Origin: a virus
Reading direction: 5' to 3' (one strand)
DNA length: 56,479 nucleotides
IMG/VR virus record: IMGVR_UViG_3300031688_001404
Span: 1 to 56,479 of that record
A program made the translations under genes and the position numbers. The notes below the pieces were generated by a model, which was not told the DNA's origin, searched no databases, and saw only the letters and a list, made by a program, of their open reading frames with translations. Positions 2,993-54,895 of this stretch are shown in pieces (within the stretch, counting starts at the first letter, position 1; each line of letters opens with the position of its first letter).

Positions 2993-2999
2993 GTAATTC

Positions 3000-3033: not shown

Positions 3034-3040
3034 TTAAAAT

Positions 3041-3117: not shown

Positions 3118-3123
3118 TAAAAG

Positions 3124-3209: not shown

Positions 3210-3219
3210 ATAAAATAAG

Positions 3220-3297
3220 TGGTGTGATCGCCGGGGTATGATCCCGGATCTACAAGGTTCACAACCTTGGGCATTTGCCAGTTATGCTACGATCACC
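3220..3297 (-). tRNA. tRNA-His (GTG)
   Basis: Perfect acceptor GTGATCG/CGATCAC, anticodon loop TTGTGAA in perfect stem CAAGG/CCTTG, encoded CCA. The extra 5' G typical of His is present (3297). Position 73 is A rather than the usual bacterial C. Confidence 0.9.
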
Positions 3298-3305
3298 ATC
3301 AAAGC

Positions 3306-3440
3306 GGTTTACTATTTGGGAGTCGAACCCTTACGTTGCCTGTAACGCGATACACCAAGCCTTCCTTAATGTATCCGAGGAGTTGAACCTCAATATTTAA
3401 CGTCAGTTTCCGGAAACGTAGACGGCAGCCAGCATAGTAA
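3306..3440 (-). ncRNA. Composite tRNA-like element with long central insert
   Basis: TTACTAT (3434-3440) pairs perfectly with ATAGTAA (3309-3315) like an acceptor stem, followed by unpaired A and CC. A T-like arm GGG TTCGACT CCC sits beside it. Stem TACGT (3416-3420) pairs with ACGTA (3332-3336); the enclosed loop of about 79 nt starts U-U33-CCG, as for Arg(CCG). Inside are another T-like arm (GAGG TTCAACT CCTC) and hairpins GATACA/TGTATC and CGTT/AACG. There is no proper D arm. It could be an interrupted tRNA, or two decayed tRNAs folded together. Confidence 0.35.
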
Positions 3441-3443
3441 ATT

Positions 3444-3516
3444 TGGCACTCCTGGAATGAATCGAACATTCGCAAGTCGGGGTCGAAACCCAACTGCCAG
3501 TTCCACTGGCAAGAGT
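3444..3516 (-). tRNA. tRNA-Arg (TCG)
   Basis: Acceptor ACTCTTG, discriminator G, encoded CCA, anticodon loop TTTCGAC, T loop TTCGATT. Confidence 0.9.
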
Positions 3517-3570
3517 ATTAAATTGTATTTTTATATCTAATAAAAGACACGAGATATACACTATCTCTAA

Positions 3571-3646
3571 TGGTCAGGGAAGAAGGACTTGAACCCTCGT
3601 CTCAGGCATCCAAGGCCCGTGCTAAACCAAACTCAGCTATACCCTG
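3571..3646 (-). tRNA. tRNA-Pro (TGG)
   Basis: C1-G72 acceptor typical of bacterial Pro, discriminator A, encoded CCA, anticodon loop CTTGGAT in stem CGGGC/GCCTG. Confidence 0.9.
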
Positions 3647-3655
3647 TAAAACTTG

Positions 3656-3732
3656 TGGTGGATTGTAATGGATTTGAACCATTGATCTTCACCGTATGAA
3701 GGTGCTGCATTAAGCCACTATGCTAACAATCC
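3656..3732 (-). tRNA. tRNA-Met (CAT), elongator-like
   Basis: Perfect acceptor GGATTGT/ACAATCC including the 1:72 pair, encoded CCA, anticodon loop TTCATAC, T loop TTCAAAT. The paired 1:72 separates it from the initiator-like gene at 231-303. Confidence 0.88.
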
Positions 3733-3779
3733 GTAATTTTATAGTTCACACTTATGGCAGTGAATCTCCAATTTTAAAA

Positions 3780-3853
3780 TGGTACTCAGTGAAGGTAACG
3801 ATCCTTCGTCTATCGCTTATCGAGCGATGGCTCTACCTTTGAGCTAACCGAGC
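3780..3853 (-). tRNA. tRNA-Ile (GAT)
   Basis: Acceptor GCTCGGT with G.U pairs, encoded CCA, anticodon loop TCGATAA in perfect stem ATCGC/GCGAT. Confidence 0.9.
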
Positions 3854-5219: not shown

Positions 5220-5626
5220 CACTTATTACAATTATTAACACACAATATCGCAGGATTATCGCTATTCCATCCTTCAGTCCAGATGTAACTGTGGAATACT
5301 TCGTGCGCTATGATTTCTTCTATAGAGTGATGTTCTAAACTATTCCAATCAGGATCTTCATTTATTATAGTCATCATTCTAGCATCATTCAATAATTCTG
5401 CTGATTCACCATTTACATTATGAAAATCTTCTTCACTAGAATCTTCATCGGGACCCAATTCATCTGCCCTCATCATATGTCGTCTATCCCATGCATTTGC
5501 AAAATAACAACATGGCCACACTCTTCCTTCTGGTGTTACTTCCCATTTTCTTACAGGGAGGTTAGTAAATTCATTTAGAGCTTCGAATGATTGACATTCA
5601 ATATTATATTTACCCTTTGATGTCAT
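5216..5626 (-). CDS. SPASM-domain half of a split radical SAM protein
   Basis: 136 residues with the cysteines expected of a C-terminal SPASM auxiliary-cluster domain: CQS near residue 11, VWPCCYFANAW near 37-47 and CVNNCNKC at the end. The full-length relative at 37687-38775 has the same order (INC, LMPCCWTAG, CSMKC) fused to its radical SAM domain. Here the gene starts inside the end of the radical SAM gene (17-nt overlap, different frame) with AGGAG 9 nt before the ATG, so coupled re-initiation is plausible. An acidic insert follows the CC motif. Likely needs its partner for activity. Confidence 0.65.
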   Translation of the reverse strand: MTSKGKYNIECQSFEALNEFTNLPVRKWEVTPEGRVWPCCYFANAWDRRHMMRADELGPDEDSSEEDFHNVNGESAELLNDARMMTIINEDPDWNSLEHHSIEEIIAHEVFHSYIWTEGWNSDNPAILCVNNCNKC

Positions 5627-6278
5627 CTGGACTCACTCCTATTAATAATTTTTCTGCATCCAATCTAGAATCTGGTGTTATTAATCCAAAATCTCTATTA
5701 TTGAAGCAAAAAATAATTTTAATTCCAATCTCTTTTGCCATTTGACGTGCTAGCGGTATTTCATGCCAATTCCACTCAAATATTAAATATCGCCATTCAC
5801 CATCCCCACCTGATTGAGTGTGAGTTTTCATATTTTCAAAAGCTTTATTAAAATCAACACCTTCTCTATACTTCCAATTGGTGTCATGTGTTGCTCCATC
5901 AATTGCCCAATTTATAAAGACATCGTCTGTGTATTTTTCTGCTATCGTCTTATACCAGTTTGCATTTCTAAGCGCACCATTTGTTGATATTAATATTGAT
6001 GGTGCATATTCTAATGCAGTTTCTATAAATTTGTCAACTTGTGGATGCATCATGGGATCGCCCAACTCGCCACAAAACTCAATTATATTATACTTTATAT
6101 TAGTAGATGCTGCAAGAGTTCGTTTAAACACATCTAGATTCATATGCTTGAGTTCTAACCAATCTTCTTTTTCACCAGTATATTGATTCGTTCTAGCACA
6201 ACTTCTACATCGTGCTTGACAATATGTGGTTAATGCAAAATCTATCTCAGTTAAATATTCCATATTAGTTGATGTCAT
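5610..6278 (-). CDS. Radical SAM domain half of a split SPASM protein
   Basis: 222 residues. The 4Fe-4S motif CQARCRSC is at residues 20-27, followed by a partial TIM-barrel (CGELGDP, ISTNGALR, DDVFINWAIDGA). It closely parallels the N-terminal half of 37687-38775 and stops where that protein continues into its SPASM domain. Reaction unknown; the family includes peptide- and sugar-modifying enzymes. It is the penultimate gene of the 12828-to-5216 island. Confidence 0.75.
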   Translation of the reverse strand: MTSTNMEYLTEIDFALTTYCQARCRSCARTNQYTGEKEDWLELKHMNLDVFKRTLAASTNIKYNIIEFCGELGDPMMHPQVDKFIETALEYAPSILISTNGALRNANWYKTIAEKYTDDVFINWAIDGATHDTNWKYREGVDFNKAFENMKTHTQSGGDGEWRYLIFEWNWHEIPLARQMAKEIGIKIIFCFNNRDFGLITPDSRLDAEKLLIGVSPDDIKG

Positions 6279-6286
6279 TTATTTCC

Positions 6287-7600
6287 TTACTTGTCAAGTT
6301 CTAAATCTGATTTAATTCGGCTAAATTCAGGTGCTACTGACATCACATCATGTCCGCGATGCTTATCATAGTTTTCTGTTACTTGAACATAATCCCTCAT
6401 AAATCCACGATCATACTTGGTTTCTGGATCTTCGCCAAAATGCAATGCTTCCATTAACGGACGTGAATAATCTTCATAATGAGGACTATCTTTTATCTCT
6501 TCTAAAAATTCTAGTATCTGTGATTTCTGTTCATCACGCAACCATTGGGGACTATGCGCCATTGAGTAATATTCAGGTTCTACCAATTGATTCGTACTCA
6601 TGCCGATGGTACGGTCATTAGTCTGTTGATAATCGTGCATAAATCTCCAGAATGGAACCAAATGCAACGCGTTTGTTACTTGATTCACCGTAGTGACACG
6701 TACACGAATGTTCTTTCCTTCTGATGTATTTGAATACTTTACTAACTTATCAAAATTTTCCCATACTGAATCCCACTGCGATGGCGGACGTAAATAATCA
6801 TTCATATCACCCATGCCCTCTAATGAGCAATTTACAACAACTTGCTTAAACTGACTAAATTGCTTCAACCATCTATCTTGCATATTGGTGATGTTCGTGT
6901 AGAACGATAATGTAATATTTTTTGCGTATCCGGATTCAGTTGCTCTGTCTAGCAACTTGAACATATCAGATACAACAGTTGGTTCGCCGCCAATCATTTT
7001 AATCGTCTGTGCATATGGCAGCATCTTATCAAAACTATCCCAATCGATGCCAGGCTGAATTATCGCTTTCTTTTTATTAGCAATATTATTGTCCCAATCA
7101 TATCTATCTAAGTTAGGAGATTTGGGACCCAAATCTGTTGCAATCATATTGGCACGCTCAACACTTACTAAATGCGATGCTTCTTTGTTACACATCTGAC
7201 ATTGTAGATTACACAAATTACCTAATCTAAAATCAAATTGTAGAGGCTGTTCTATATTCCAATCATTTGCACTTGCTAATGCTACAATATCTGGAACCTG
7301 ATCTTTCCATGAATAGTTTTCCCATTGACGAGAACTTATAATATCGTTACGTTCTAATCTTTTACATTCTATACACTCTGGTAGCCATTCGCCCGTAGCC
7401 ATACGCTCACGAACACTACGAATGTAATCATGATTCCATGTTCCATCTATGCCTAGTTCTTCTTGATTAATAAGTTCACTAGGTTCCTTTGCCATACAAC
7501 ATAATCGATAACGACCCCCATTGAATGTACTATATTGTACAAATGGCAGTGCGCAAAACCCATTATCTGTGTCATTGTTCTTTATATCGTCATCGTTCAT
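6287..7600 (-). CDS. Twitch-domain radical SAM protein
   Basis: 437 residues. The N-terminal half-SPASM (twitch) region has FCALPF, LCC and CIECK cysteines. The radical SAM motif CNLQCQMC is at about residues 132-139, followed by MIGGEPT, the glycine-rich SAM-binding strand. Twitch-first radical SAM proteins are common in marine phages, with unknown substrates. The start overlaps the stop of the upstream gene (TAATG). Paralogous to 9710-11143. Confidence 0.8.
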   Translation of the reverse strand: MNDDDIKNNDTDNGFCALPFVQYSTFNGGRYRLCCMAKEPSELINQEELGIDGTWNHDYIRSVRERMATGEWLPECIECKRLERNDIISSRQWENYSWKDQVPDIVALASANDWNIEQPLQFDFRLGNLCNLQCQMCNKEASHLVSVERANMIATDLGPKSPNLDRYDWDNNIANKKKAIIQPGIDWDSFDKMLPYAQTIKMIGGEPTVVSDMFKLLDRATESGYAKNITLSFYTNITNMQDRWLKQFSQFKQVVVNCSLEGMGDMNDYLRPPSQWDSVWENFDKLVKYSNTSEGKNIRVRVTTVNQVTNALHLVPFWRFMHDYQQTNDRTIGMSTNQLVEPEYYSMAHSPQWLRDEQKSQILEFLEEIKDSPHYEDYSRPLMEALHFGEDPETKYDRGFMRDYVQVTENYDKHRGHDVMSVAPEFSRIKSDLELDK

Positions 7601-9165
7601 TACTTGATTCCTATAATCATAAATCTATTATATAACTGTGTGCTTTGTTCACCACTAAATAATACTTCTTTCATTTGGTATTTAGTCATGGCGGTAGACA
7701 GATCTTTAACGCAGTTCATATTATCTGAAAAATCATTTGTCTGTATTACTATCAAAGTATCATCAGTATCTGGTATATTGTCAAACCATGTATCATCCAT
7801 ATGTGCGCAACTAGTGTTTATCAATAAATCAGGCAGAGATGATTCATCCCATATTATATCAGATACATCATTGGTTTGTGCACTGAATAATTCGTCAGAT
7901 TCTGCTATATGATTTAACAAACGAGCATACTCTGTTGTCTTATGATCTATATCCACACTAAGTATAGATTCAATTGTTTCATAATTATTAATTAACATAG
8001 ATGAATGGGTGCATATGTTACCACCCAATATTACAACATCAGATGGTTCCAACGTTGTCTTACTTAATTCTTCAATCATCCAAGACTTGCCTATCATCGA
8101 ATCACGTGTGATAAAATCTACTAGATCAATATTACCATGCGATGGGTCAGACAATTTCATCAATCCATATATAAAATTATCATTAATATTGCGATTAATA
8201 TATTCCAATACTTGATGATCTGGTATTACATAATCATCTATTAATAATGATTGAAGTATTACATTAACATAAAGTTCAGTGTCTTCATTCTTACCTATAT
8301 TTACTTCTTCTAAAATAAGATCGCGAATGCCCCAGTTATCACCGTATACCAGTGCATTCTTTAGTTTAATAAATACTGCATAGTATGATTCTACGGATGA
8401 CAATGTAAAATATTCTTCTAGTCCATGAAACCATGATAAATGAATTGGGTGATGCTGATCTATTGTATGCACTGATGACTTGTCAAATGTAGTGGTTAAC
8501 CAAGTGAAATCGTTTATTTTATCTAGAGTTTTCTTATCATTTTTGTAAAATGCACCGAACTCTCGTCCTTGTCTAGCACCCATTATAGCATATTTTCCAT
8601 GGGCACTGCTATCTCCACGAGTACACCATACATCTAATCTGTATCGATCATCCATATCTGGAGTGGGGTTAGATGCTAGTTTTGTACACTCACGGAATGC
8701 ACTGCGCCATGTACTGAATTCATCTGTATTGAATTCGGTTATATTAGATATTTGTTGCTTCACTACTAATGGTGCATCTATTGTTGTGGTCATATCTATC
8801 TGAAATGATTTCGCATTCAATAACTTATGTCTAGGGAATAACTTTACTCCACCATAACCATAAATCAATCCATTGACTGCATTAACACTCTGCCATACGA
8901 ATACACAACTTGATTCATTCACACCCGGATACGATTCTTTAATGATATCAGGTGTGAATGAGAAATTAAAATGCTCAGATAACACCGCGTCAGCATCTAC
9001 TACATAAAAATTATCAGTAGTTGCCAATTTTGCTGCTGCTTGATGTGCCTCTAAAATCCCGACGACATTATCTACCCTCTTCGCATTGGGTGCTAATTTC
9101 TGTATTCTTTTGAAATTTTGATCAGCGTTTGGTTCACCATACGCCAACATGACAACATCTAACAT
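7600..9165 (-). CDS. Glycosyltransferase-like / methyltransferase-like fusion protein
   Basis: 521 residues. Residues 1-230 resemble a GT-A-like nucleotide-sugar domain (FYVVDADAVL, GYGGVKLFP, FRECTKLAS). The region after about 370 resembles a Rossmann methyltransferase-like domain (VVILGGNICTHSSML, SVDID, DLLINTSCAHM) ending in YNRFMIIGIK. The same two domains occur as separate overlapping genes at 40550-41254 and 39640-40563, so this is the fused form. Substrate unknown; the gene is flanked by a nucleosidase and a radical SAM gene. Confidence 0.6.
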   Translation of the reverse strand: MLDVVMLAYGEPNADQNFKRIQKLAPNAKRVDNVVGILEAHQAAAKLATTDNFYVVDADAVLSEHFNFSFTPDIIKESYPGVNESSCVFVWQSVNAVNGLIYGYGGVKLFPRHKLLNAKSFQIDMTTTIDAPLVVKQQISNITEFNTDEFSTWRSAFRECTKLASNPTPDMDDRYRLDVWCTRGDSSAHGKYAIMGARQGREFGAFYKNDKKTLDKINDFTWLTTTFDKSSVHTIDQHHPIHLSWFHGLEEYFTLSSVESYYAVFIKLKNALVYGDNWGIRDLILEEVNIGKNEDTELYVNVILQSLLIDDYVIPDHQVLEYINRNINDNFIYGLMKLSDPSHGNIDLVDFITRDSMIGKSWMIEELSKTTLEPSDVVILGGNICTHSSMLINNYETIESILSVDIDHKTTEYARLLNHIAESDELFSAQTNDVSDIIWDESSLPDLLINTSCAHMDDTWFDNIPDTDDTLIVIQTNDFSDNMNCVKDLSTAMTKYQMKEVLFSGEQSTQLYNRFMIIGIK

Positions 9166-9168
9166 TAT

Positions 9169-9723
9169 TTACTCGCTACGATTTGATAATATTTTCATGA
9201 ATTCATTTGCACCATCGGAGCAATTCTGTTCCCAGTCTGTAGTTGAATCTTCATCTGCAAAGTCTGATACGTACTTATAGCAATCAAAGATAACTTTATA
9301 CTTTTTGCATACCATTGCAATACCATATGCTTCCATATCAACCAGTGTACTACTCAATGGTGGCTGACTTGTGACAAAGTTATCACCACTAGTCAATGAA
9401 ACACCACTAAGTTTTAGATCTATCCATAATTCACCAGTGAACGGAGTCTGTCCTACTTTCCAACCTAAAGGCGATGCATCCATATCTCGTTGACCTACGG
9501 TACTAACTTCATGTACACCTAGTGCTAAATCAGGATCTAAACTGCCCGCAGTACCCATATTGATAATGGTATGAGGATTGTACTTAAATACTGCTTCCAT
9601 TGCTGCCATTGTCGCTTTGATCTTACCGACACCTGTTACTATTTTAACATATGGTGTCGGTAATTCATAGGGCAATTCCACTTCTAACGCAATTAATACT
9701 GGTATTACATCAGTCACTATCAT
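9169..9723 (-). CDS. MTA/SAH nucleosidase-like protein
   Basis: 184 residues, shorter than the usual ~230. Family signatures: TGVGKIKA, NMGTAGSLDP, DMEAYGIA and the C-terminal YVSDFADE with the catalytic-type Asp. The enzyme hydrolyses methylthioadenosine, SAH and also 5'-deoxyadenosine, the inhibitory by-product of radical SAM catalysis. Placed between two radical SAM genes and overlapping one by 14 nt, it probably clears these by-products. The short length suggests loss of peripheral elements. Confidence 0.75.
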   Translation of the reverse strand: MIVTDVIPVLIALEVELPYELPTPYVKIVTGVGKIKATMAAMEAVFKYNPHTIINMGTAGSLDPDLALGVHEVSTVGQRDMDASPLGWKVGQTPFTGELWIDLKLSGVSLTSGDNFVTSQPPLSSTLVDMEAYGIAMVCKKYKVIFDCYKYVSDFADEDSTTDWEQNCSDGANEFMKILSNRSE

Positions 9724-11143
9724 TGTCCTCTGTAGGCTCGTCTAATAAGTAAGCCATGTCTGCAAATGTTTTTCTGAAATCGGTGCCGCGCATCTCGTCT
9801 AGTTTGTTAATGTATTCTCTAAACTCTGGTAATCGCTGACTCCAATCTTCACTACGAGCAAAACTAATCATACCACGTAAACGCTTGATGCCATATTCAG
9901 CATCTTCCCATTTCTGATAATCTACTTTACCCTTGTGCCAACTTGGAACACCTAGTTCCCAATTCTCTTTCCACCATGCAATGAACTCTTCATACTTCGC
10001 TTCGGTTTTGTCTAAGAACTCATCTGGCAATACCTTGACATTCAAATGTCCTGGCCAGTATACAAAGTGATAGTTAATACCACCAGCGCCAAAGGGCCAC
10101 ATGTTTGTCTTCTTCAAGTCTGATTGCAGTTTCCATTTAAGGAAGTCTGGAATGTAGTGAATGTTTAGTGCGTTAACTGCACACGCGATTGTAATCTCTA
10201 CGTTGTTAGAAGTCTGTGTATCAAGACGCTCAAACATTGCAAGTTGATGTGACCATTCACTTGGGTAACGAATATAATCATTCATTTCACCAATACTGTC
10301 AATACTATAATGGAAACGTACCTTTTGGAAATGCTTCCATTGCTCTAGTAGACGATCAGGCAATTCAATGCCATTACTGTTGTAACGCAACTCAATCTGA
10401 GATGCATAACCCATTTCAATAACTTTATCTAGGATTTCATAATGCTCTTCGATAACCGTCGATTCGCCGCCTGCAAAGTATAGTTGACGCATGAATGGAA
10501 TTTGAGCATAAAATTGTTCCCAAAACTGTGGGTTGTTTTTATGCCAGTTATAATTAGCACCAAACTGCTTGCCTTTATCATCCCAAGACATTGTTTCTTT
10601 TAGTGACTCATTGGTAATCTGTGGATACAACTTATTCCAATCTTTTACCCATCCTGATGAATCGTGTGGACTACACATAACGCAACCAAGTTGGCATTTA
10701 GTACCCATACGGATATCAATGTATCGTAGTTTTGAATCAGTTGAACCGTCTTCATATGTTTCTTTAACAAGTTCATCAACATCAATTCCATCACGCATCC
10801 AGTACTGGGTTTCCCACTGTCGCTTAGATCGATGTCCTGCATCTTCTTCTTTGTAACATTTCAAACAACTAGCAGGCTTTTCTCCTGCAAGCATTTGTTG
10901 ACGTACACCACGCATGTAACTATTGTTCCATGCACTAGACAAGTCACTGTTGTTTAGGTTTGCAGGCTTACCATCATCTGTCTTAACAATGCCAACTCGC
11001 CCACCGTGAACTTTATCATTTGTTGCACCAACACTACTTGCATTTGCTGTACAACATACTCTCATACTGCCGTCTGGGCGAGTACTCAAATGTATCCAAG
11101 GTAGAATACAAAACGTATCTGATGGTAATTTCTTTTCTGTCAT
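9710..11143 (-). CDS. Twitch-domain radical SAM protein
   Basis: 477 residues. The N-terminal twitch cysteines are in FCILPWIHLST, VCC and CLKCYKEE; the cluster motif CQLGCVMC lies near residues 150-157, then YFAGGESTV. Domain order matches 6287-7600 but the C-terminal region is longer and Trp-rich. A TATAAATA late promoter is at 11179-11186. Substrate unknown. Confidence 0.8.
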   Translation of the reverse strand: MTEKKLPSDTFCILPWIHLSTRPDGSMRVCCTANASSVGATNDKVHGGRVGIVKTDDGKPANLNNSDLSSAWNNSYMRGVRQQMLAGEKPASCLKCYKEEDAGHRSKRQWETQYWMRDGIDVDELVKETYEDGSTDSKLRYIDIRMGTKCQLGCVMCSPHDSSGWVKDWNKLYPQITNESLKETMSWDDKGKQFGANYNWHKNNPQFWEQFYAQIPFMRQLYFAGGESTVIEEHYEILDKVIEMGYASQIELRYNSNGIELPDRLLEQWKHFQKVRFHYSIDSIGEMNDYIRYPSEWSHQLAMFERLDTQTSNNVEITIACAVNALNIHYIPDFLKWKLQSDLKKTNMWPFGAGGINYHFVYWPGHLNVKVLPDEFLDKTEAKYEEFIAWWKENWELGVPSWHKGKVDYQKWEDAEYGIKRLRGMISFARSEDWSQRLPEFREYINKLDEMRGTDFRKTFADMAYLLDEPTEDNDSD

Positions 11144-24119: not shown

Positions 24120-24127
24120 TATTTATG
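24120..24127 (-). promoter_or_regulatory. T4-type late promoter (CATAAATA)
   Basis: 39 nt upstream of the preferred metK start; overlaps the end of queE. Confidence 0.45.
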
Positions 24128-25010
24128 TACCCCAATTATTACCATATAAATCTATGTGCAATCTTGGGCTAAATCTATAACCTTTTTCTAATGCCAACTG
24201 TGCAATATCTCTTACTGATAAATCGTACTCTTCTGAGCGACCACCTATTGGCATAAGATATACAGGACATTCAATACCAAAATTACGATACTCTGTCACT
24301 ACCTCATCTACTTCTGCTACATCTGCCGCATTAGATACAACAAATTTAAGATATAAATTATTACCAGTAACTAGACGATACTGAACAGCAACACCAGGCT
24401 TAATCGCATCTTCATGAGATTCGCCACTAACCAATAGTTTAGGTGAACAACTCCACGTTACTGTGATTGTATCTTTATTATCTAGATATTCAAATAACTC
24501 GTCATGTAATGACTGAGTTGTGTTTGTTTCAAATGTAACATTTCTTAAATCACTCATACGAGGATGTTCAAATATATCCACATACATACGTTGCCATGCC
24601 AATAAAGGTTCGCCACCAGTAATCACTAAGTGAATATCTTGACCATTATCCATCATCCACTTACCGTTTGGCGTAAGCGATAACAAGTGATCAACTACTT
24701 CATCTACAGTACGATCAAACATCAAGTGCTTGAACTCTGGGTAGATACTCGCGTATGTATCACAGCCTGTATGAATGATAGGTAAGTCTTCCAATAGCGT
24801 AGCATTTATATGTACACCATCATCAATCAATTTCTTTACTTCTGGATTGTATCGTTCGTCTTTGATAGATTCACGTTCTTCACTCGACATTGAAAATGAT
24901 TTGCAGCGAAAATTGCAACCGAAAGTACGCAAGAATACACTAGGCACACCTACAAATTTACCTTCACCTTGAAGCGAATAGAATGCTTCACTGTATCTAA
25001 GTTTCATCAA
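24123..25010 (-). CDS. queE: 7-carboxy-7-deazaguanine synthase (QueE-like radical SAM)
   Basis: 295 residues. N-terminal SLQGEGKFVGVPSVFLRTFGCN is the QueE signature. The cluster cysteines are C32 and C36, but the third is displaced to C83 (GCDTY) by an insertion of about 46 residues, as in marine phage QueE-like proteins. VITGGEPLL follows. QueE makes CDG from carboxy-tetrahydropterin in the preQ0 route. With FolE (30484) and DpdA (31813) it points to DNA 7-deazaguanine modification; QueD and QueC are not in this window. Confidence 0.8.
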   Translation of the reverse strand: MMKLRYSEAFYSLQGEGKFVGVPSVFLRTFGCNFRCKSFSMSSEERESIKDERYNPEVKKLIDDGVHINATLLEDLPIIHTGCDTYASIYPEFKHLMFDRTVDEVVDHLLSLTPNGKWMMDNGQDIHLVITGGEPLLAWQRMYVDIFEHPRMSDLRNVTFETNTTQSLHDELFEYLDNKDTITVTWSCSPKLLVSGESHEDAIKPGVAVQYRLVTGNNLYLKFVVSNAADVAEVDEVVTEYRNFGIECPVYLMPIGGRSEEYDLSVRDIAQLALEKGYRFSPRLHIDLYGNNWGT

Positions 25011-37686: not shown

Positions 37687-38775
37687 TTACTTAAATTGTG
37701 CTGCAAACGGATCAAACTCTGCGCCGCATTTCATTGAACATACGCCCAACTTGCCATCTTCTATACTATTCTTTGCCCAACTGTCTTGTATATCCTTCAT
37801 TACGCCAGTATTGAATACACCTTCAATGCCATGTAGTTTCACACTCAGCGCATCTTTACCACCCGCGTTATCAATGAAATCCCAGATCTGTTCTACTTTA
37901 GGATCATCATGCCACCACTTGTACATTCTTCCTGCTGTCCAACAGCATGGCATCAAAATGCCCTCTGCTGTTACAAATATATTCTTATCTTTTGCTACTT
38001 TGCAATTAATCTTAGCAGTGTCATAGTATTGTTTCATTGAACCATATGTTTTTTCTATCTCTGCTTGCTTCAATAATTCCAAATTCTGATGCTCTGCTTT
38101 CTTAGGCTTCGCGAGTACTTGTGTTACTGCTCCTTTACGATTCGTACCTTGATGTGTTTCTTTCTTTTCACTAGTTGCACTAATGAATCTACCTGTTTTC
38201 TTCTTGATGAATTTCTCAACACCCCATTCTTTCGCTAGTTGTTCTGCACGATCTACATCACATTCACTATGCTCAAAGATTAGATAATCCCATCTTGCTC
38301 TGCCGCCAGCAGCGATAAATGCTTTCATGTTTCTCTCAACAATCTCCCACTTAACGCCCTGTCTGTACAAATGATTCGTATTTTCTAATCCATCAACACT
38401 AAATATCACTGCGCCGTTTTTACCAATGACCTGTGCCAATTGTGTCCACCATTCCGCAGATCTTGCACCTGCATTGGTATTCATGCTCAACCACATTTCA
38501 TCGTTACATGCACGAAACCATTCAAATATTTCCAATGCATCTGATGCGGAAATGGGATCACCCAAATTACCACACATATACATCGTATCTAATTGCGAAA
38601 TGAAATCAGGCGGGAACATATCAATGCAATCATCTAGCGTCAACTCAGCCAGATTGTCTTTGATATGTTTGTTGACTGCACCACCATTTTCATTACGATC
38701 ACACATAGTACATGACGCATTACATCGCTGGGTCACTTCTAAGTGTAATTGTTTTATATCTTTATACTTATACAT
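37687..38775 (-). CDS. Radical SAM/SPASM protein (full length)
   Basis: 362 residues. Cluster motif CNASCTMC at residues 18-25, GDP-containing strand MCGNLGDP, then SPASM cysteines INC, LMPCCWTAG and CSMKCG in the last 110 residues. It is the unsplit relative of the gene pair 5610-6278 and 5216-5626. Substrate unknown; adjacent sugar dehydrogenase and glycosyltransferase-like genes suggest a carbohydrate or surface-modification context. Confidence 0.82.
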   Translation of the reverse strand: MYKYKDIKQLHLEVTQRCNASCTMCDRNENGGAVNKHIKDNLAELTLDDCIDMFPPDFISQLDTMYMCGNLGDPISASDALEIFEWFRACNDEMWLSMNTNAGARSAEWWTQLAQVIGKNGAVIFSVDGLENTNHLYRQGVKWEIVERNMKAFIAAGGRARWDYLIFEHSECDVDRAEQLAKEWGVEKFIKKKTGRFISATSEKKETHQGTNRKGAVTQVLAKPKKAEHQNLELLKQAEIEKTYGSMKQYYDTAKINCKVAKDKNIFVTAEGILMPCCWTAGRMYKWWHDDPKVEQIWDFIDNAGGKDALSVKLHGIEGVFNTGVMKDIQDSWAKNSIEDGKLGVCSMKCGAEFDPFAAQFK

Positions 38776-44198: not shown

Positions 44199-45260
44199 TT
44201 ACTTGATTAAATCTTCTTTAAGAATCGCTGGCTTACCAGTGACTTGTAAGAAACTTACAAGATTGCGTAGTGTGGTTGGCTTAATTTGCTCACGCAGAAT
44301 ATCTAACGCATCTACCATATCTTCACCGATAATCCAATCATACTTGCCTGTCTTTTCGTAAATCTTCGCCATTGATACAGGATCTGCTGCCATTGCTCGG
44401 AACGCTGCGCGTAAACGATCTGTCTCAGGGCTACCCTTCTTAATCCATAATGCTTTCTGCATCACGTCACGGAAGTTACGTACAAGTTCAAATGCTTCCC
44501 AGAATTCACCTTGTGGTGCAACACCCCATTTCGCTTCAAATACTTCATGAATTGAAAGGTTAGGCCAGTTAGGATCAGCATCAATTTCGCCTGTCTCTAG
44601 GTTAAATACACCTTGTGAGAACCATACTTTAGAAAATTCCTTACCATTGTAATACTTATTGTATGCTGCTGTAGACTCACGAGTTACGTTAAGTTCACCG
44701 CCACGCTGAAAACTAAGTCTACGATCACCACCTGACATACCTTTGATGTACTTGTACTGACTAGCAAAAATCTCTTCTGCCTGTGCCATAGTAAGATCAG
44801 GTCCACCTTTCAATAAGATGTGTGCCATCATATCTGGGTTCATACCAGAACCAGCACTGAATTTAATAACACCTGTGTATGGATTAAAACCAGGAGAGTG
44901 TCCGTTGATAATAGTCAAGTTCATCATACCGATTGGGTCATACTGGTAATAGTCATAGTCAACTGGGTCTACCAAATACGACACTCCGTTACCACCATGC
45001 GACACCATAACAGTCTTGTCGTCATGCTGTAGATCATTGTGGAATTTGTTAAAGCCTGGGATATCATTCGCTCCTGGGATATTAACGATCTTGATCTTCT
45101 CACCTAAATGCTTCTCTAATTCACCAGCAACGATTGCTGTCCATACCGATGTGCCTGAACCTGGCTTCTGCGGTACGATGAATGTGAAATCTGCCATAGC
45201 AGGCAGTGATGATACTGTCATTCCTAGTGCAACTAACGTTGCGATTACTAACTTCTTCAT
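44199..45260 (-). CDS. tctC: Tripartite tricarboxylate transporter binding protein (TctC-like)
   Basis: 353 residues. Signal peptide (1-23, ending LPAMA), then FIVPQKPGSGTSVWTAIVAGELEKHLGEKIKIVNIPGAN, the characteristic ligand-anchor region of TctC/Bug periplasmic proteins. It would bind a carboxylate in the periplasm and deliver it to the TctA permease encoded immediately upstream (12-nt gap). The C-terminal half is longer and more divergent than typical Bug proteins. Confidence 0.85.
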   Translation of the reverse strand: MKKLVIATLVALGMTVSSLPAMADFTFIVPQKPGSGTSVWTAIVAGELEKHLGEKIKIVNIPGANDIPGFNKFHNDLQHDDKTVMVSHGGNGVSYLVDPVDYDYYQYDPIGMMNLTIINGHSPGFNPYTGVIKFSAGSGMNPDMMAHILLKGGPDLTMAQAEEIFASQYKYIKGMSGGDRRLSFQRGGELNVTRESTAAYNKYYNGKEFSKVWFSQGVFNLETGEIDADPNWPNLSIHEVFEAKWGVAPQGEFWEAFELVRNFRDVMQKALWIKKGSPETDRLRAAFRAMAADPVSMAKIYEKTGKYDWIIGEDMVDALDILREQIKPTTLRNLVSFLQVTGKPAILKEDLIK

Positions 45261-45272
45261 TTGTTATTTCTC

Positions 45273-46718
45273 CTAAACAAAATCAATGCGTGCATTGTTT
45301 TTAAAAGCGCCCCAATATGCAGCTAATGCTGCTAATAATAAAAATATGATTGCTAATGGGTTACTTAGCAAATCACCCCACTCGTATAATCCAGTAAATT
45401 GCAAATAACTAGATTCTATTCTTGCTGATAAGATAAATCCTATCAAAAAACTTACTCTACTAAACTTCAAGTACTTTAACACCATGCCTGCAACACAACA
45501 TATCGCAAGCATCATATAATCTTCTTTTAATCCTGTGTACTGCGTACTAGACCAAATCAAACTCGCTAAGATTGGCCAGAAGTACCACTGAAACGGAATA
45601 TTGGTTATCTTAACTGCATACTTGATAAACATATATGAAATAGGTAATATGATTAACAGACTCCACATATAACTGCTCAACAATGCATCAAAGAATCTTG
45701 TATCAGCCAACACTGCTGGCGTGCCTAACTCCAAACCAACATACATAAGCAATCCCATTATGATCACTTCAAATGGTGCGCCAGGAATACCAAACAATAT
45801 AGTAGGAACATAACTAGTTGCCTTCTGTGCATTGTTTGCACCTTCGCATCCAATTACCCCTCGTACATGTCCGTTTCCTACTTTCTCATCATCATTCTTT
45901 GTTGCTGCAACTGTCTGACTATATGCAAACCAATCTGCTATGTTACCACCAATGCCCGGGATCAATCCAATGAAACCGCCGATGAAACCGCCTCGCAAAC
46001 CATCCCATTTATATTTCCAACTATCTTTAATACCTTGAATCAATTGTGATTTAATCTTTGCATTGTCTAGGAATATCTTTTCCGCTTTCATACGATATGC
46101 ACTTATTAGTTCTGGGAACGCTAAAACACCAGCCATAACAGGTATCATCTGTATACCATCACCAAGATATTCCCAACCCATTGTCCAACGTGGCGCTGCT
46201 GTTTGTGGGTCCATTCCAATGTGACCAACTACAAAACCACCTATTAACGCAATGAATCCTCTAACATAATATTTGCTACTTATGAATATAACACAAGTCA
46301 TTGAAAAAATCAAGAAGGTAAACATCTCTTGTGTACCAAAATACAAAACAATCTTTGAATAATATGGTAAAAACAAAAATACTAACAATCCCCATATTAA
46401 TCCATTCGCCCATGATGTAGATATTGCCGCACTTAATGCTCTTGCTGCTTCACCTTTACGACTCATAGGAAATCCATCAATCATGGTCGCTGCTGCACCA
46501 CCTGCTCCTGGGATATTCATAACGACACCACAGAAACTATCACCAATACTAGACGATACAACTATCGCAGTCGTAAACACAACCAACATATACGGATCAT
46601 CAAAATACCCAACGAATGAGTAGATGGCGATTAATCCAACTGTTGCTCCTGCTACTGGAATTAAACCTACGATAAATCCGTAAGCAATACCAGCCATTAG
46701 TATAGTAAAATATTCCAT
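45273..46718 (-). CDS. tctA: Tripartite tricarboxylate transporter permease (TctA-like)
   Basis: 481 residues, about 12 hydrophobic segments. TctA hallmarks: GLIPVAGATVGL and GVVMNIPGAGGAAATMIDGFPMSRKGEAARAL-type first repeat, and IGLIPGIGGNIADWFAYSQ with VIGCEGANNAQKATSYVPTILFGIPGAP in the second. No TctB small subunit is encoded nearby. Strong early promoter at 46899-46904 with a ~150-nt leader. An auxiliary metabolic role in carboxylate uptake is inferred. Confidence 0.9.
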   Translation of the reverse strand: MEYFTILMAGIAYGFIVGLIPVAGATVGLIAIYSFVGYFDDPYMLVVFTTAIVVSSSIGDSFCGVVMNIPGAGGAAATMIDGFPMSRKGEAARALSAAISTSWANGLIWGLLVFLFLPYYSKIVLYFGTQEMFTFLIFSMTCVIFISSKYYVRGFIALIGGFVVGHIGMDPQTAAPRWTMGWEYLGDGIQMIPVMAGVLAFPELISAYRMKAEKIFLDNAKIKSQLIQGIKDSWKYKWDGLRGGFIGGFIGLIPGIGGNIADWFAYSQTVAATKNDDEKVGNGHVRGVIGCEGANNAQKATSYVPTILFGIPGAPFEVIIMGLLMYVGLELGTPAVLADTRFFDALLSSYMWSLLIILPISYMFIKYAVKITNIPFQWYFWPILASLIWSSTQYTGLKEDYMMLAICCVAGMVLKYLKFSRVSFLIGFILSARIESSYLQFTGLYEWGDLLSNPLAIIFLLLAALAAYWGAFKNNARIDFV

Positions 46719-47513: not shown

Positions 47514-48209
47514 TTAATACTTATTGATAATATTTATCAAATTGGTGATTATTCCTTTCATCTTTGCATATTCAGAACTGTTCTTCATATACAATGATCT
47601 ATTAACTTCAATCATTATTGATTTCACATTATCATTTGTATGATAATACTCCATCGGTACAATTGTACCAGCAAATGGTTCGTTCACTACGCTAGTGTAA
47701 CCAAGTATCTTCAATTCTTCCTGCAATCTTACAATCAATGACACTGGTGTATGATACGAATCAGTACCTATACAAAAATCAGGTCGTTCACCAGATGGTT
47801 CATGAGGTAATTGCTCATTAGAAAAACTATGACAGTCTACAATCATGACTTGTCCATTTTCTTCTAATTCATCTCTTACAGACTCGTACAATTTCGCATG
47901 ATGCGGAATGTAATATTGATTTACAATACGATCTTTCTCTTCATCTGACACTGCCCTTAACGGTGCACCAAACGAATCAGTCGTATAACATATTCCCATA
48001 CCCACTGCATCCATTTCTTCATTCTCAATGAAGCGTTCAACATCGCATATCAATCGACTAACTTCTAATTTAACAATAGTATGCTCACAATCAAATAAAT
48101 CATCAGTGTGCCAATCAGTCATTCGCTGAATATCATCACTTACATCTTTTTTATCAAATTCTATATCCAATGGAATATAGGTAGATGAATGTGGTATATG
48201 TAAAATCAT
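47514..48209 (-). CDS. N-formylglutamate amidohydrolase-like protein
   Basis: 231 residues. LHIPHSSTYIP at the N-terminus, DWHTDDLFD, the metal motif VDCHSFS, and C-terminal IMIEVNRSLYM match the N-formylglutamate amidohydrolase family. In bacteria it releases formate and glutamate at the end of histidine degradation; relatives hydrolyse other N-acyl bonds. Starts at the stop of the methyltransferase gene. Confidence 0.82.
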   Translation of the reverse strand: MILHIPHSSTYIPLDIEFDKKDVSDDIQRMTDWHTDDLFDCEHTIVKLEVSRLICDVERFIENEEMDAVGMGICYTTDSFGAPLRAVSDEEKDRIVNQYYIPHHAKLYESVRDELEENGQVMIVDCHSFSNEQLPHEPSGERPDFCIGTDSYHTPVSLIVRLQEELKILGYTSVVNEPFAGTIVPMEYYHTNDNVKSIMIEVNRSLYMKNSSEYAKMKGIITNLINIINKY

Positions 48210-49923: not shown

Positions 49924-50346
49924 TTATTTGGTTTTAATTACCACTTTCTTAACAACTGCTTTCTTTACTGGTGCTTTCTTAACAACTGCTTTCTTTACTG
50001 GTGCTTTCTTAACAACTGCTTTCTTTGCAACTGCTTTCTTTACTGGTGCTTTTTTAACTACCGCTTTTTTAACTACCGCTTTCTTAACTGTTGCTTTCTT
50101 AACTGTCGCTTTTTTAACTACCGCTTTTTTAACTACCGCTTTCTTAACTGTTGCTTTCTTAACTGGTGGTTTCTTAATAACGATTAGTTCTTCTTGGAAT
50201 GTTAAAATACCAAATGCAAGACCATAACGACCTTGATCAGTTACCAACGTATGTCCATTAAAATCAACAACTATCTCTGACTTTGATTTTACTAGATAAT
50301 CACGGAAGTCTATCAACGAATTCCAACGCTTGATTCTATACTTCAA
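49924..50346 (-). CDS. Histone H1-like Lys/Ala-rich protein
   Basis: 140 residues. The first ~58 form a small globular region ([17 protein letters not shown]). The rest is 15 tandem pentapeptides of the form (P/V/T)VKKA, a strongly basic tail like bacterial and eukaryotic H1 C-terminal domains. It probably binds DNA non-specifically, for example in packaging, host nucleoid takeover or protection. Overlaps the upstream gene by 4 nt. Confidence 0.75.
49934..50172 (-). repeat. 15-bp coding tandem repeats
   Basis: About fifteen 15-bp units (plus strand GCTTTCTTAAC-type) encode the KKA tail. Higher-order 30-bp and 75-bp periodicities show successive duplications. Confidence 0.8.
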
Positions 50347-50605: not shown

Positions 50606-50719
50606 TTAGTCGTATATATACGGATCTTGCTCTTGCAATTTCTTTAACTTCGCTTCCATACGCTTCTTATACTTACGCTCTGCTAGTTTTCTTTTTACCC
50701 ACTTAACTGGATTAAACAT
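50606..50719 (-). CDS. Small basic protein (37 aa)
   Basis: MFNPVKWVKRKLAERKYKKRM..., ending QDPYIYD. The ATG overlaps the carbamoyltransferase stop by 8 nt (ATGTTTAA), a coupling arrangement. I recall similar KxDPxIY-ended mini-proteins in marine T4-like phages. Function unknown. Confidence 0.55.
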   Translation of the reverse strand: MFNPVKWVKRKLAERKYKKRMEAKLKKLQEQDPYIYD

Positions 50720-52238
50720 CTTTCGTTACCACCTTTACATTATACTTTTCAGTCCAACGCAATGCGTCAGTTTCGGTGTCAACCATTGGTTCACCTTTAA
50801 TATTCAAACTTGTATTCAACAACATCGGGCATCCTGTCTCTTCATACCATTTTTCTAACAATGAATACAATCCCGGATGCTGCTCTCGTGTCACTGTCTG
50901 TACTCTACTAGTATTATCATAATGTGATATAGCAGGAAACAAATCTGGGCGCTTACACACACCAACGAATTGCATATACGGACTCGTGTTACAGCCTTGT
51001 GGCATTTCAAAGTAATCATGCAAATGCTCTTCCATAATCACAGGTGCAAATGGTCTGAATGCCTGTCGCTGCTTCACTGTGTTAACCAAATCTTGCATTT
51101 CACTTCCACGAGGATCTGCTAACAAACTTCTATTACCCAATGCTCTAGGACCGAACTCTGCTCTACCACTCGCTACGCCAACCATACCAATCGTTGTCAA
51201 TTCTTTCATCGCTGCTTTCACTGGGTAATCACCAGCAATATTATATCCCAAGTAAGGACTATTCCATTCAACATGTGTACGCAAATGATCTAATACACAA
51301 CCAATAGCACTACCTGCATCACCCGGATTAGGCATTATCCATACACCATCATAAAACTTATGTGCAATACTATTAGCAACGCAATTTAATGCACAGCCAC
51401 CCATAAGCACAATGTTATCTGATTTAATCAACAGCGATGTCTCAACCAATAAATGTTTGAATACATGCTCATACACTGCCTGCGTTGATGCGGCTATGTC
51501 TGCGTAATCTTGTACTGTATTTAAGTCAGGACGCCACTGTCGACAACCTCTATGTAAGTTCTGTTTGAATTTTATATTCAACGAACCATACTCTAACGGC
51601 TCAAAGAAGTCATTCAATATATCATAAAAGTATTTGGCTGAGTCACCAATTGCTGCCCATCCCATTAAGATATACTCATCTTCGTTTGGCTTTAAACCAA
51701 TTCTCTGAGTCATTGCGCTATACCATAATCCAATACTATTTGGATATGATTGACTAAATTTCTTTGTTAATTTATCACCTTCGCCATGCCAAACTGTTAG
51801 TGTCTCAAATTCACCAATAGAATCAATTACTAATACAGCAGCATCATCATAAGGAGAGGTGTAATAGCCTGCGGCTGCGTGACTTCTGTGATGTGGATGA
51901 TAGGTCATTGTGCGAGTAGTGAACGGATCTACGTTGGGGAATAATGTAGTATCGATACCTAAATCGCGCAGAGTTGTTATCGGGGTTTCTTTAGTGAATG
52001 CAGTCTTGTACTGACCCGCTTTGATCTGACGTAATCGCTTGGTAAAATCGTTCTCATACCAATGAACTTCTTTCGGATCACCTAACAATAATGCTTGACT
52101 GATTATTTCATCATTCAATAGTTTGTCGTTCTTGATACCACTTGATCGCTCACTGTGTGCTGCGAATAGTAATTTTGTTCCGTCAAATACAGCCAAAGCA
52201 GCATCATGACTCCCTGCACAAATCCCCCATCTAATCAT
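50712..52238 (-). CDS. Carbamoyltransferase (NodU/CmcH/TobZ family)
   Basis: 508 residues, near full length. N-terminal Kae1-like domain with ICAGSHDAALAVF, HHRSHAAAGYY, VIDSIGE and LMGGCALNCVAN; C-terminal YrdC-like domain with GRAEFGPRALGNRSLLADPR, FRPFAPVI and LLNTSLNIKGEP. These enzymes transfer a carbamoyl group from carbamoyl phosphate, via carbamoyl-AMP, to hydroxyls of sugars, antibiotics or bases. Target here unknown. Late promoter at 52260-52267. Confidence 0.92.
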   Translation of the reverse strand: MIRWGICAGSHDAALAVFDGTKLLFAAHSERSSGIKNDKLLNDEIISQALLLGDPKEVHWYENDFTKRLRQIKAGQYKTAFTKETPITTLRDLGIDTTLFPNVDPFTTRTMTYHPHHRSHAAAGYYTSPYDDAAVLVIDSIGEFETLTVWHGEGDKLTKKFSQSYPNSIGLWYSAMTQRIGLKPNEDEYILMGWAAIGDSAKYFYDILNDFFEPLEYGSLNIKFKQNLHRGCRQWRPDLNTVQDYADIAASTQAVYEHVFKHLLVETSLLIKSDNIVLMGGCALNCVANSIAHKFYDGVWIMPNPGDAGSAIGCVLDHLRTHVEWNSPYLGYNIAGDYPVKAAMKELTTIGMVGVASGRAEFGPRALGNRSLLADPRGSEMQDLVNTVKQRQAFRPFAPVIMEEHLHDYFEMPQGCNTSPYMQFVGVCKRPDLFPAISHYDNTSRVQTVTREQHPGLYSLLEKWYEETGCPMLLNTSLNIKGEPMVDTETDALRWTEKYNVKVVTKDV

Positions 52239-52259
52239 TATTAATTCCTCGTATGCGAC

Positions 52260-52267
52260 TATTTATA
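52260..52267 (-). promoter_or_regulatory. T4-type late promoter (TATAAATA)
   Basis: Exact consensus 22 nt upstream of the carbamoyltransferase start. Confidence 0.6.
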
Positions 52268-52954
52268 TTACGCATCTTTTCGTCCAATATAATACATTAT
52301 TCCATCTACTACTTTGACCAGGTCTCCAGTGTGAAACCATCCGTCATGAATGCACGCATTGCTTTTTACTACTAATTCATCGTCGCTTACAAAGTATTCG
52401 CAATTAAACGTATCACCTAATACAGTTAGTCCATTGTAATCTTCTGCAATGTCGCCTGGGCGATATGTCTTGTTAATGACCACTGGACCAATTTCCGTCA
52501 TTCCCCAATTAACAATAAATGTTGCACCTTTTTCAGTAAACGCATTTACAGTACTAGCAGGCACTCTGTCGCTTCCGCATACAATAATCTTTCCATACAA
52601 ATCTACTGCTTTCCACTGCTTTGTCTTTGTCAGCACTCTTGCCATTTTAGGGGTCAAATGACTGTGTGTAAATGTTTCCATTTTGTCACACCATGTTCGT
52701 GCGTTAAACGTTTCAAACTCTACGTACGCACCTATTTCGTGTGCTGGAAGTGTTTGCGCTAGTAACCCACCCGCATGTTCTAACTTGCATACAGTATATA
52801 TTCTACTTTTATAGTCAATACTTTGTGTATTTCTGGCTAGTACATTAGATATGCTAATCTTTCGCGGACTTTGCCACAACTTCTTTGGTGGACCAGTTGA
52901 TCCACTGCTAAACATCATATATCCTTCGTGTAAGCATCTGTCAAAGTCAATCAT
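52268..52954 (-). CDS. Miniature ANL-superfamily adenylation domain
   Basis: 228 residues, under half the usual 500+. Core ANL motifs are retained: FSSGSTGPPKKL (A3, residues 15-26), NWGMTEIGP (A5), and DGWFHTGDLVKVVDG...YYIGRKD (A7-A8 hinge). The N-terminal subdomain and the mobile C-terminal domain with the A10 lysine are missing. It may bind ATP and an acid but might not complete adenylation unaided. Grouped with halogenase and carbamoyltransferase genes. Confidence 0.82.
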   Translation of the reverse strand: MIDFDRCLHEGYMMFSSGSTGPPKKLWQSPRKISISNVLARNTQSIDYKSRIYTVCKLEHAGGLLAQTLPAHEIGAYVEFETFNARTWCDKMETFTHSHLTPKMARVLTKTKQWKAVDLYGKIIVCGSDRVPASTVNAFTEKGATFIVNWGMTEIGPVVINKTYRPGDIAEDYNGLTVLGDTFNCEYFVSDDELVVKSNACIHDGWFHTGDLVKVVDGIMYYIGRKDA

Positions 52955-52978
52955 CTTTTAATTCGTCTCGTACAACCT

Positions 52979-53296
52979 TCATTTAGTATCTGAATCAAGT
53001 TCATCTTTTAGTTTTTTCCAAAGTGGGTGGTTCGGTAGGAATCTATGTAGTCCAATTGTTTGATCGATAACTACTTCAAGTAGTTTAAAATCAAATAATG
53101 GAGGGAATATTGCATGTATGATACTAGCACATGCCATAAGCAACTGCTTACCCGCCTCTCTAAATCCAGTATACATATGTTTAAAATAAAGTACTACGCC
53201 ATTTTTACGCAATCCTCCATTATAATATTCTGCCATTCTTAAATGATTCCAACTAAACCAACCTTTCATAGCATGTTCTCTTTCAGTAAATTCCAA
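52979..53296 (-). CDS. DUF6356-like small protein
   Basis: 105 residues. Pattern W-x-H...YYNGGL...YFKHMYTGFREAGKQLLMACASIIHAIFPPLFDF resembles the family of small proteins with a hydrophobic centre annotated DUF6356. Overlaps the halogenase-like gene by 31 nt. Function unknown; possibly a lipid- or membrane-associated accessory. Confidence 0.5.
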   Translation of the reverse strand: MEFTEREHAMKGWFSWNHLRMAEYYNGGLRKNGVVLYFKHMYTGFREAGKQLLMACASIIHAIFPPLFDFKLLEVVIDQTIGLHRFLPNHPLWKKLKDELDSDTK

Positions 53297-54348
53297 CTGT
53301 GCTTGCCCATCAAACCTTGATGTCCTTCCTCGCTGTAAAAATCTATATCCTTTATTGCTTGTTCGCGATTAGTTTTATAATAATCCCAATATTCTCCAGT
53401 GCATGTATTACAACTATATAATGCTTTAATCCATTTGTGTATACCATTATATGTTTTGTTAATCAATCTATTATAAATTGCTGGGTTATCTTCTAGTAGT
53501 AAAAAGTTTTTTATTCCACTTTGTGCTGCAAAGTTTGCTGTAGCATTCAATGGTTCAATAAATCCTGCACTGAGTCCTAAGAACAATACATTATCTTTCC
53601 ATGCTTGTTCTGGAATGCGGGTCTCAAAATTTATTACAGTTTCATGCTTTATACCTGTGTACTTTTCGAACTCTGCAATAGCATCTTCAACCGTTTGATA
53701 TTGTGAACTAAATACATACCCATGACTCATTCGCGACTGTAAACTAATACTCCATAACCACCCGTTGCTCATTGTCTGTGAATGTGTATAAGGCACGTAA
53801 CTTGTTTTGTCGTTTCCTATTACAGCATAATCATTTATTAGGAAATCACTTGTATTATGCACAATCCCAACTTGTTCTGATAGCACTCCATTTTGTCCAG
53901 TTGCATCAATATAAAATTCTTCTTTAGTATACTGATCTTTTGTAAACTTAGAATTTATAATTCTAAAATTATCTTGTTGCTCACACCATTCTTGTAGCAC
54001 TTCGCAGAATCCAGGTGCGTCTATGTGATATGCATATGTTTGATGTCTATCAGTTGTTGTACTGTCTGGCTCATTGGCAAAAAAATACATCCAACTGTTC
54101 GCATCTTTCCATCCACTAAACATTGTTCCGTATTTGAAATAACCATTTACTCTATTTAAGAATTCCTGATCACTCATGCCCATAAGACGAGGTATTTCAT
54201 TTATTGTAGGTACTGTGCTTTCACCAACCTTGCGAATATCTACGCTAGGATCTTTATAGAGAGTAACTGGTTTATCTGCTTTTAACAAGTATAAACATGC
54301 AATCCATCCTGTTGTTCCTGCGCCTATTACGTTATACATGTTATGCAT
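53266..54348 (-). CDS. Tryptophan-halogenase-like flavoprotein
   Basis: 360 residues (PrnA is ~540). FAD-binding VIGAGTTGWIA (7-17), family motif VGESTVPTINE (~41-51) and GWLWSISL, a variant of the WxWxIP motif of flavin-dependent halogenases, followed by GLSAGFIEPLNATAN. Members halogenate tryptophan or tailor natural products; phage homologues have no proven substrate. Possibly starts at M4. Overlaps both neighbours. Confidence 0.82.
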   Translation of the reverse strand: MHNMYNVIGAGTTGWIACLYLLKADKPVTLYKDPSVDIRKVGESTVPTINEIPRLMGMSDQEFLNRVNGYFKYGTMFSGWKDANSWMYFFANEPDSTTTDRHQTYAYHIDAPGFCEVLQEWCEQQDNFRIINSKFTKDQYTKEEFYIDATGQNGVLSEQVGIVHNTSDFLINDYAVIGNDKTSYVPYTHSQTMSNGWLWSISLQSRMSHGYVFSSQYQTVEDAIAEFEKYTGIKHETVINFETRIPEQAWKDNVLFLGLSAGFIEPLNATANFAAQSGIKNFLLLEDNPAIYNRLINKTYNGIHKWIKALYSCNTCTGEYWDYYKTNREQAIKDIDFYSEEGHQGLMGKHSWNLLKENML

Positions 54349-54862
54349 ATCTACTCCTTATTTCAAAATATTTATCGTTGTTTAGTTTCCAAACACTTTG
54401 TTTCACATAAAATAGTTCTTCATCACCCACGTATTCAACCATGTCGCCTTTAGCCATCACTGCAAAACTCTTATGTATTCTATTCATTCTTCCACTTTCA
54501 TCGTTGCTTACATTGGTAGTGATATATATAGGTTTACCGTTTGCAAATTGTATCTGCAATGGTAAATGATCATATATTCCCCAACTTTGCATTTGGTATC
54601 TGCTAAGTCCCTTGATTGGACGAGACTGTAGTTGTGCACCTCTAAACAACGCACGATATCCATCTTTGAATGGATGAATGCCACTAACACTTATAATTTC
54701 ACCATTGGTATCGTGTGTAGCATACCACTGACCACCTTGATCTATGCACCATTCAAATTTCATATGCTTTAAAGATATATTGTTTTTATAGTCTCTGTCG
54801 ACGCATTGTTTTATGAAATTAATTAATTCAGGTGAACATGTTGATATTTCTTTTGTAATCAT
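54341..54862 (-). CDS. GNAT-like hypothetical protein
   Basis: 173 residues. WYATHDTNGEIISVSGIHPF followed by YRALFRGAQLQSRP resembles the central strands of an acetyltransferase fold, and NRIHKSFAVMAK a C-terminal helix. Acetyl-CoA motif not clear. Exact TATAAATA late promoter at 54888-54895. Confidence 0.45.
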   Translation of the reverse strand: MITKEISTCSPELINFIKQCVDRDYKNNISLKHMKFEWCIDQGGQWYATHDTNGEIISVSGIHPFKDGYRALFRGAQLQSRPIKGLSRYQMQSWGIYDHLPLQIQFANGKPIYITTNVSNDESGRMNRIHKSFAVMAKGDMVEYVGDEELFYVKQSVWKLNNDKYFEIRSRYA

Positions 54863-54887: not shown

Positions 54888-54895
54888 TATTTATA
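54888..54895 (-). promoter_or_regulatory. T4-type late promoter (TATAAATA)
   Basis: 26 nt upstream of the start at 54862; heads the GNAT-like/halogenase/ANL block. Confidence 0.6.

Follow-up and report, generated by a model that had tools for sequence, protein, structure and literature searches.

The 56,479-nucleotide (nt) viral sequence IMGVR_UViG_3300031688_001404 from IMG/VR (positions 1 to 56,479 of that record; hereafter "the window") belongs to a T4-like marine phage and carries a cassette of four genes, which encode a GNAT-fold protein, a Trp-halogenase-like flavoprotein, a small hydrophobic DUF6356 protein and a strongly shortened adenylation domain of the ANL family (mini-ANL), in that order (54862 to 52268). 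An earlier note on this DNA had joined these genes to a neighboring carbamoyltransferase gene in one late-expressed tailoring block. The five genes are indeed contiguous and all located on the minus strand (50712-54862), and they are split into two units. The four-gene part of that grouping is conserved among viral relatives; the carbamoyltransferase gene lies outside the conserved cassette. It is quite possible, if short of probable, that the cassette is a late-expressed, translationally coupled operon for a small, membrane-associated acyl-transfer module, probably an amide-forming one.

The arrangement of the open reading frames (ORFs) was examined at the nucleotide level. The 3' end of the GNAT gene overlaps the flavoprotein ORF by 8 nt, the likely true start of the DUF6356 gene is the ATG at 53269 (in an ATGA overlap with the flavoprotein stop codon), and the mini-ANL gene begins 24 nt past the DUF6356 gene. 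Because of these overlaps, the four genes were read as a single translationally coupled unit. The T4-type late-promoter motif TATAAATA was found exactly where late promoters had been predicted, on the minus strand at 54888 and 52260. As the second of these precedes the carbamoyltransferase gene, that gene was taken as a separate unit. The motif was not more frequent in the window than expected by chance (7 copies vs. 9.3 expected). All seven copies were on the gene strand, and four preceded a listed start by no more than 50 nt; such zones make up 5% of positions. The sites at 54888 and 52260 have a longer block of 23 nt, TATAAATAGTCGYATACRAGGAA, in common. The block proteins of a 192-kb sister contig are identical to those of the window, and this contig encodes a T4-type Gp23 capsid protein (nearest to the Gp23 of large phages from several hosts), which agrees with T4-like late promoters. 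The motifs ahead of the cassette and this capsid gene are in keeping with the late expression that had been proposed.

Relatives of the cassette were sought by scans that detect them via conserved peptides; the resulting loci were dereplicated and are not phylogenetically independent. The mini-ANL scan returned 102 viral relatives, of which 80 were kept, and 46 dereplicated viral loci were used for neighbor counts. A GNAT of one family was located at most three genes from the mini-ANL in 41/46 loci (on the same strand in 40). Within the same distance, a P-loop protein was present in 38/46, DUF6356 in 27/46 and the flavoprotein in 4/46. For the reciprocal scan, the GNAT family alignment A5 was too diverse, and alignment A4 was used instead; mini-ANL was found within 5 kb of the GNAT in 26 of 29 loci, DUF6356 in 24 and a halogenase-family flavoprotein in 8. 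The gene order of the window is kept in relatives, in which the flavoprotein is 80% and the mini-ANL 53% identical to the window's proteins and no carbamoyltransferase is present. The condition that the earlier note had named as refuting its reading, a gene order without conservation in any relative, therefore does not hold for the cassette. Elsewhere, the position of the GNAT is variable: it may stand before or after the mini-ANL, it is inverted in locus L005, and in L052 (10733-11983) and L063 (10732-11982) a single ORF of 417 amino acids (aa) encodes a fusion of GNAT and P-loop protein. Gene proximity thus survives changes of order, inversion and fusion. The recurrent partners are the GNAT, mini-ANL, DUF6356 and the P-loop protein, and the flavoprotein is optional. 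The P-loop protein had no Pfam match; it was named, and likened to sulfotransferases, solely by eye. In expanded cassettes that run from DUF6356 to mini-ANL (L203, 5494-10255; L207, 5500-10477), the intervening genes encode a class IV aminotransferase, a 2-oxoglutarate-oxygenase-like protein, a halogenase-family flavoprotein and an IMPDH/GMP-reductase-like protein. Neither of the module's two core proteins had a match in 50,697 phage records (the GNAT of the window included), and no paper on this gene module was found in the literature; it is apparently undescribed.

In a separate observation, a far more divergent short ANL protein (72 bits) adjoins a GNAT of the same family at L214 (3286-4540). 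This pairing suggests that the GNAT-ANL association predates the mini-ANL clade analyzed in this work.

Table 1. Features of the cassette and of the adjacent unit in the window.
Feature	Position	Strand	Evidence or remark
T4-type late-promoter motif TATAAATA	54888..54895	-	ca. 25 nt upstream of GNAT start
GNAT-fold protein, 173 aa, cassette gene 1, atypical coenzyme A (CoA) loop	54341..54862	-	AlphaFold, Foldseek, family alignment
Trp-halogenase-like flavoprotein, 360 aa	53266..54348	-	PF04820, 199 bits; alignment to PrnA
DUF6356 small hydrophobic protein	52979..53296	-	PF19883, 27.2 bits; alignments
Mini-ANL, 228 aa	52268..52954	-	PF00501 positions 166-358/384, 57.5 bits; family alignment; motif counts; AlphaFold
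Second late-promoter motif TATAAATA	52260..52267	-	ca. 20 nt upstream of carbamoyltransferase
NodU/Nol-like carbamoyltransferase, 508 aa	50712..52238	-	PF02543 + PF16861; phrog_1601, E = 1e-95

The description of the adenylation domain as lacking both N- and C-terminal parts was borne out by its partial match to PF00501, and the ends were confirmed in 77 dereplicated viral and bacterial homologues. Family members have a median of 19 residues ahead of motif A3 and of 2 residues past the hinge arginine; they lack the N-terminal subdomain (A1-A2 region) as well as the C-terminal domain, which would carry the A10 lysine. The ATP-binding core of ANL proteins is retained (A3, A4-like, A5, A7 and hinge arginine), with ATP-site residues almost invariant: S17 in 76/77, G18 and E154 in 77/77, K24 in 71/77, and T209, D211 and R225 each in 76/77. 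The motifs H60-AGG and THxHLTP around the presumed acid pocket are kept as well. The AlphaFold model is compact, with a mean predicted local distance difference test score (pLDDT) of 95.4; its nearest Foldseek match was MenE (S. aureus, 3ipl; E = 5e-14), and it also matched the compact ANL structure 4gs5. Among close relatives, the ratio of nonsynonymous to synonymous substitution rates (dN/dS) was ca. 0.05-0.15 for mini-ANL and GNAT, indicating purifying selection. The mini-ANL represents a defined minimal version and not a gene remnant. A frameshift or assembly damage as the origin of the short protein was ruled out by the identical ends in the 77 homologues. In the 192-kb sister contig, which is possibly incomplete, there was no second PF00501 match that could represent the missing parts, and no carrier protein was found there.

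The GNAT assignment of the earlier note proved right by fold. The window protein had no Pfam or PHROGs family match; since these sequence-family searches failed, its identity was settled by the predicted structure (pLDDT 94.2), for which Foldseek returned GNAT acetyltransferases (HP0935, E = 3e-6). The DUF6356 assignment also held, with a PF19883 score above the cut-off of 24.4 bits and a core motif, YFxH...IHAIFPxLF, common to the window protein and PF19883. Its hydrophobic helix suggests a membrane location. In alphaproteobacteria, an Lrp-like gene is adjacent to DUF6356 in 11/20 cases, and these neighborhoods gave no further functional clue.

A genome scan revealed ca. 50 close bacterial homologues of the mini-ANL, mostly in SAR11 single cells; others were from Gammaproteobacteria, Methylophilaceae and SAR116. 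Three of the "bacterial" contigs (L139, L144 and L150) have phage-like neighbors and may be viral. On the contigs from SAR11, and on several more, DUF6356 is directly 5' of the mini-ANL, and the SAR11 pair follows a short-chain dehydrogenase gene and is itself followed by genes for a sorbosone dehydrogenase and a metallo-beta-lactamase-fold protein. In the order to which one SAR11 genome belongs, 197 genomes were sampled; the mini-ANL was present in 4, that genome counted. The mini-ANL tree calls for ca. 8 virus-bacterium switches, of which supported branches force no fewer than 6, and repeated movement of the gene between phages and bacteria is the consequence drawn from them. The bacterial copies suggest a role in cellular metabolism.

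The acyl-transfer module proposed above builds on gene arrangement and linkage, motif conservation, predicted folds and purifying selection. The bacterial DUF6356-mini-ANL pairs, the sister contig's lack of a carrier protein and of a second ANL, and the precedent of ACSM2B/GLYAT also count in its favor. From the former observations we infer ATP use, formation of an acyl-adenylate (acyl-AMP), transfer, membrane placement and substrate oxidation. The mini-ANL would bind ATP and a carboxylate and form or hold the acyl-adenylate; the GNAT-fold partner would move the acyl group to an amine, either directly from acyl-AMP or after passage via CoA; and DUF6356 would bring the reaction to the membrane. 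The flavoprotein may, in this virus group, oxidize the substrate or the product, and monooxygenase activity is more likely for it than halogenase activity. A bolder version, in which an enzyme reduced to the nucleotide-binding half of an ANL core passes the acyl-adenylate directly to a dedicated GNAT-fold partner with neither CoA nor a carrier protein, would define a new, minimal adenylate-forming class that marine viruses have in common with bacteria of the sea, SAR11 among them; we consider it unlikely.

Several observations weigh against the acyl-transfer module. The A10 lysine and the C-terminal domain serve adenylation in ordinary ANL enzymes, and their absence means that catalysis is not assured. 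The data point to no substrate, the window's mini-ANL sits on a long branch of the tree, and the window is without the usual P-loop partner. No GNAT of this kind was found within 8 kb of the bacterial DUF6356-mini-ANL pairs. Finally, the consensus acyl-CoA P-loop (Q/R-x-x-G-x-G/A) was present in 0/38 members of the GNAT family. This atypical loop fits an unusual donor, and it also fits the active GNATs with atypical loops that are already known (PMC4964394).

The missing catalytic parts are also what gives weight to the main rival, according to which the mini-ANL is a non-catalytic AMP or acyl-AMP sensor, a regulator, or a decoy for host acyl-CoA synthetases, and the GNAT modifies host or phage proteins. 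A protein that keeps the nucleotide pocket and has lost the A10 lysine, the C-terminal domain and the N-terminal subdomain has the form expected on that account, and acyl-CoA synthetases are known targets of acylation and regulation by Pat/AcuA-type GNATs. However, a sensor does not readily account for the conservation of the presumed acid-pocket motifs besides the ATP site, nor for bacterial pairs that exist without the GNAT. This rival was judged rather unlikely, if a serious contender.

It is also conceivable, although distinctly improbable, that all five genes, the one for the carbamoyltransferase among them, serve to decorate a glycan or a part of the envelope or virion during late infection, in line with the suggestion of the earlier note that it acts on the virion or envelope. 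Late-promoter motifs precede both units, the carbamoyltransferase is of the NodU/Nol type (both of its domains and a strong PHROGs match agree with the initial call), and sulfotransferase-like, SGNH-like and aspartyl-hydroxylase-like genes are found near the cassette in relatives. Yet the carbamoyltransferase gene is preceded by a separate promoter motif and is absent from the cassette in the related loci L003-L012; it is a neighbor, not a member of the cassette. Carbamoyltransferases of this type matched 138 phage records. The SAR11 pairs lie beside short-chain dehydrogenase, sorbosone dehydrogenase and photolyase-related genes, with no obvious surface-sugar cluster, and nothing was found that ties the cassette to the virion or envelope.

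A halogenated small-molecule pathway, in which an aryl acid or tryptophan is activated by the mini-ANL and halogenated by the flavoprotein, was considered very doubtful. Homology to PF04820 upholds the family assignment made earlier: the FAD motif GxGxxG (GAGTTG, residues 9-14) is retained, as is the catalytic lysine (K72 in NGYFK, aligned with PrnA K79), and a viral halogenase that iodinates its substrates is known (PMC6875430, as described in PMC10452541). The catalytic glutamate of PrnA (E346), however, is replaced by N268 (in EPLNAT) in the window and in all close relatives, and WxWxIP is replaced by WLWSIS, in which serine stands for proline, in the same proteins. In PrnA, the substitution E346Q costs two orders of magnitude in activity (PMC5727139), and a role in suppressing monooxygenation has been ascribed to the WxWxIP motif of halogenases (PMC5945002). 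The cassette variants L019, L165, L203, L207 and L214 retain the glutamate; L176 and L182-L184 have serine. Because dN/dS of the flavoprotein among close relatives is ca. 0.03 (strong purifying selection), the change to asparagine was not regarded as decay. The protein is also much shorter than PrnA, and most cassettes are without it. Given asparagine for glutamate and serine for proline, the flavoprotein was not filed as a halogenase; its residues make halogenation doubtful, and they counsel caution in equating every "viral tryptophan halogenase" annotation with halogenation.

That these are unrelated auxiliary genes brought together by chance is extremely improbable: T4-like marine phages and cyanophages have long been known to gather such genes, PrnA-like and carbamoyltransferase genes included (PMC3037559), but the reciprocal linkage (41/46 and 26/29), kept through changed order, inversion and fusion, contradicts this reading for the GNAT/mini-ANL/DUF6356 core; for the carbamoyltransferase, the reading of an unrelated neighbor holds.

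The cassette is presented as a recurrent, apparently undescribed module of uncultivated marine viruses that is built from known enzyme families and whose ANL member has been repeatedly exchanged with marine bacteria. Should the mini-ANL prove active, the lower size limit of adenylate-forming enzymes would have to be redrawn, and viruses would have a new way of making acyl amides or modified lipids.

Other features of the window were recorded. A TctA-family tripartite tricarboxylate transporter permease and an adjacent signal-peptide protein of TctC-like appearance are encoded at 44199-46718; TctA was ca. 10 kb or less from the mini-ANL in 13/46 viral loci. An N-formylglutamate amidohydrolase (47514-48209; PF05013, 158 bits), unusual for a phage, is apparently frameshifted in the sister contig (L002). 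A protein with KKAV/KKAT/KKAP repeats (49924-50346) resembles HC2 histone-like proteins (PF07382, barely above the cut-off), and its sister-contig match spans only 128/140 residues. Several radical-SAM proteins, one of them QueE-like, are encoded at 5610-11143, 24123-25010 and 37687-38775 and may belong to further modification pathways. Thirteen tRNA genes are located within 3.7 kb (148-3853).

Compared with known systems, the carbamoyltransferase is an ordinary two-domain member of the NodU/Nol group, which is common in cyanophages and also present in Pelagibacter phage HTVC008M. The viral DUF6356 proteins are divergent from those of alphaproteobacteria (27-33 bits vs. ca. 100 bits). The flavoprotein has the FAD motif, the Lys79 equivalent and PF04820 homology in common with PrnA, RebH, VirX1 and the cyanophage PrnA-like proteins, whereas it is only 360 aa long (538 in PrnA), is missing the C-terminal region of PrnA and is ca. 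23-28% identical to the cyanophage copies. The GNAT has the predicted fold of GNAT acyltransferases without their consensus P-loop or a sequence family. The mini-ANL resembles ANL acyl-CoA synthetases (MenE, PF00501) in fold and in the A3, A5, A7 and hinge-arginine motifs; it differs in being without the first ca. 165 PF00501 positions and the C-terminal domain with its A10 lysine, and in forming a defined family of ca. 225-250 aa. As a pair, the two proteins resemble ACSM2B/GLYAT, in which an ANL enzyme and a GNAT-fold enzyme together form an amide (glycine conjugation; PMC8003330), although that system uses a full-length ANL enzyme and acyl-CoA, and the cassette has a truncated ANL protein and an atypical CoA loop.

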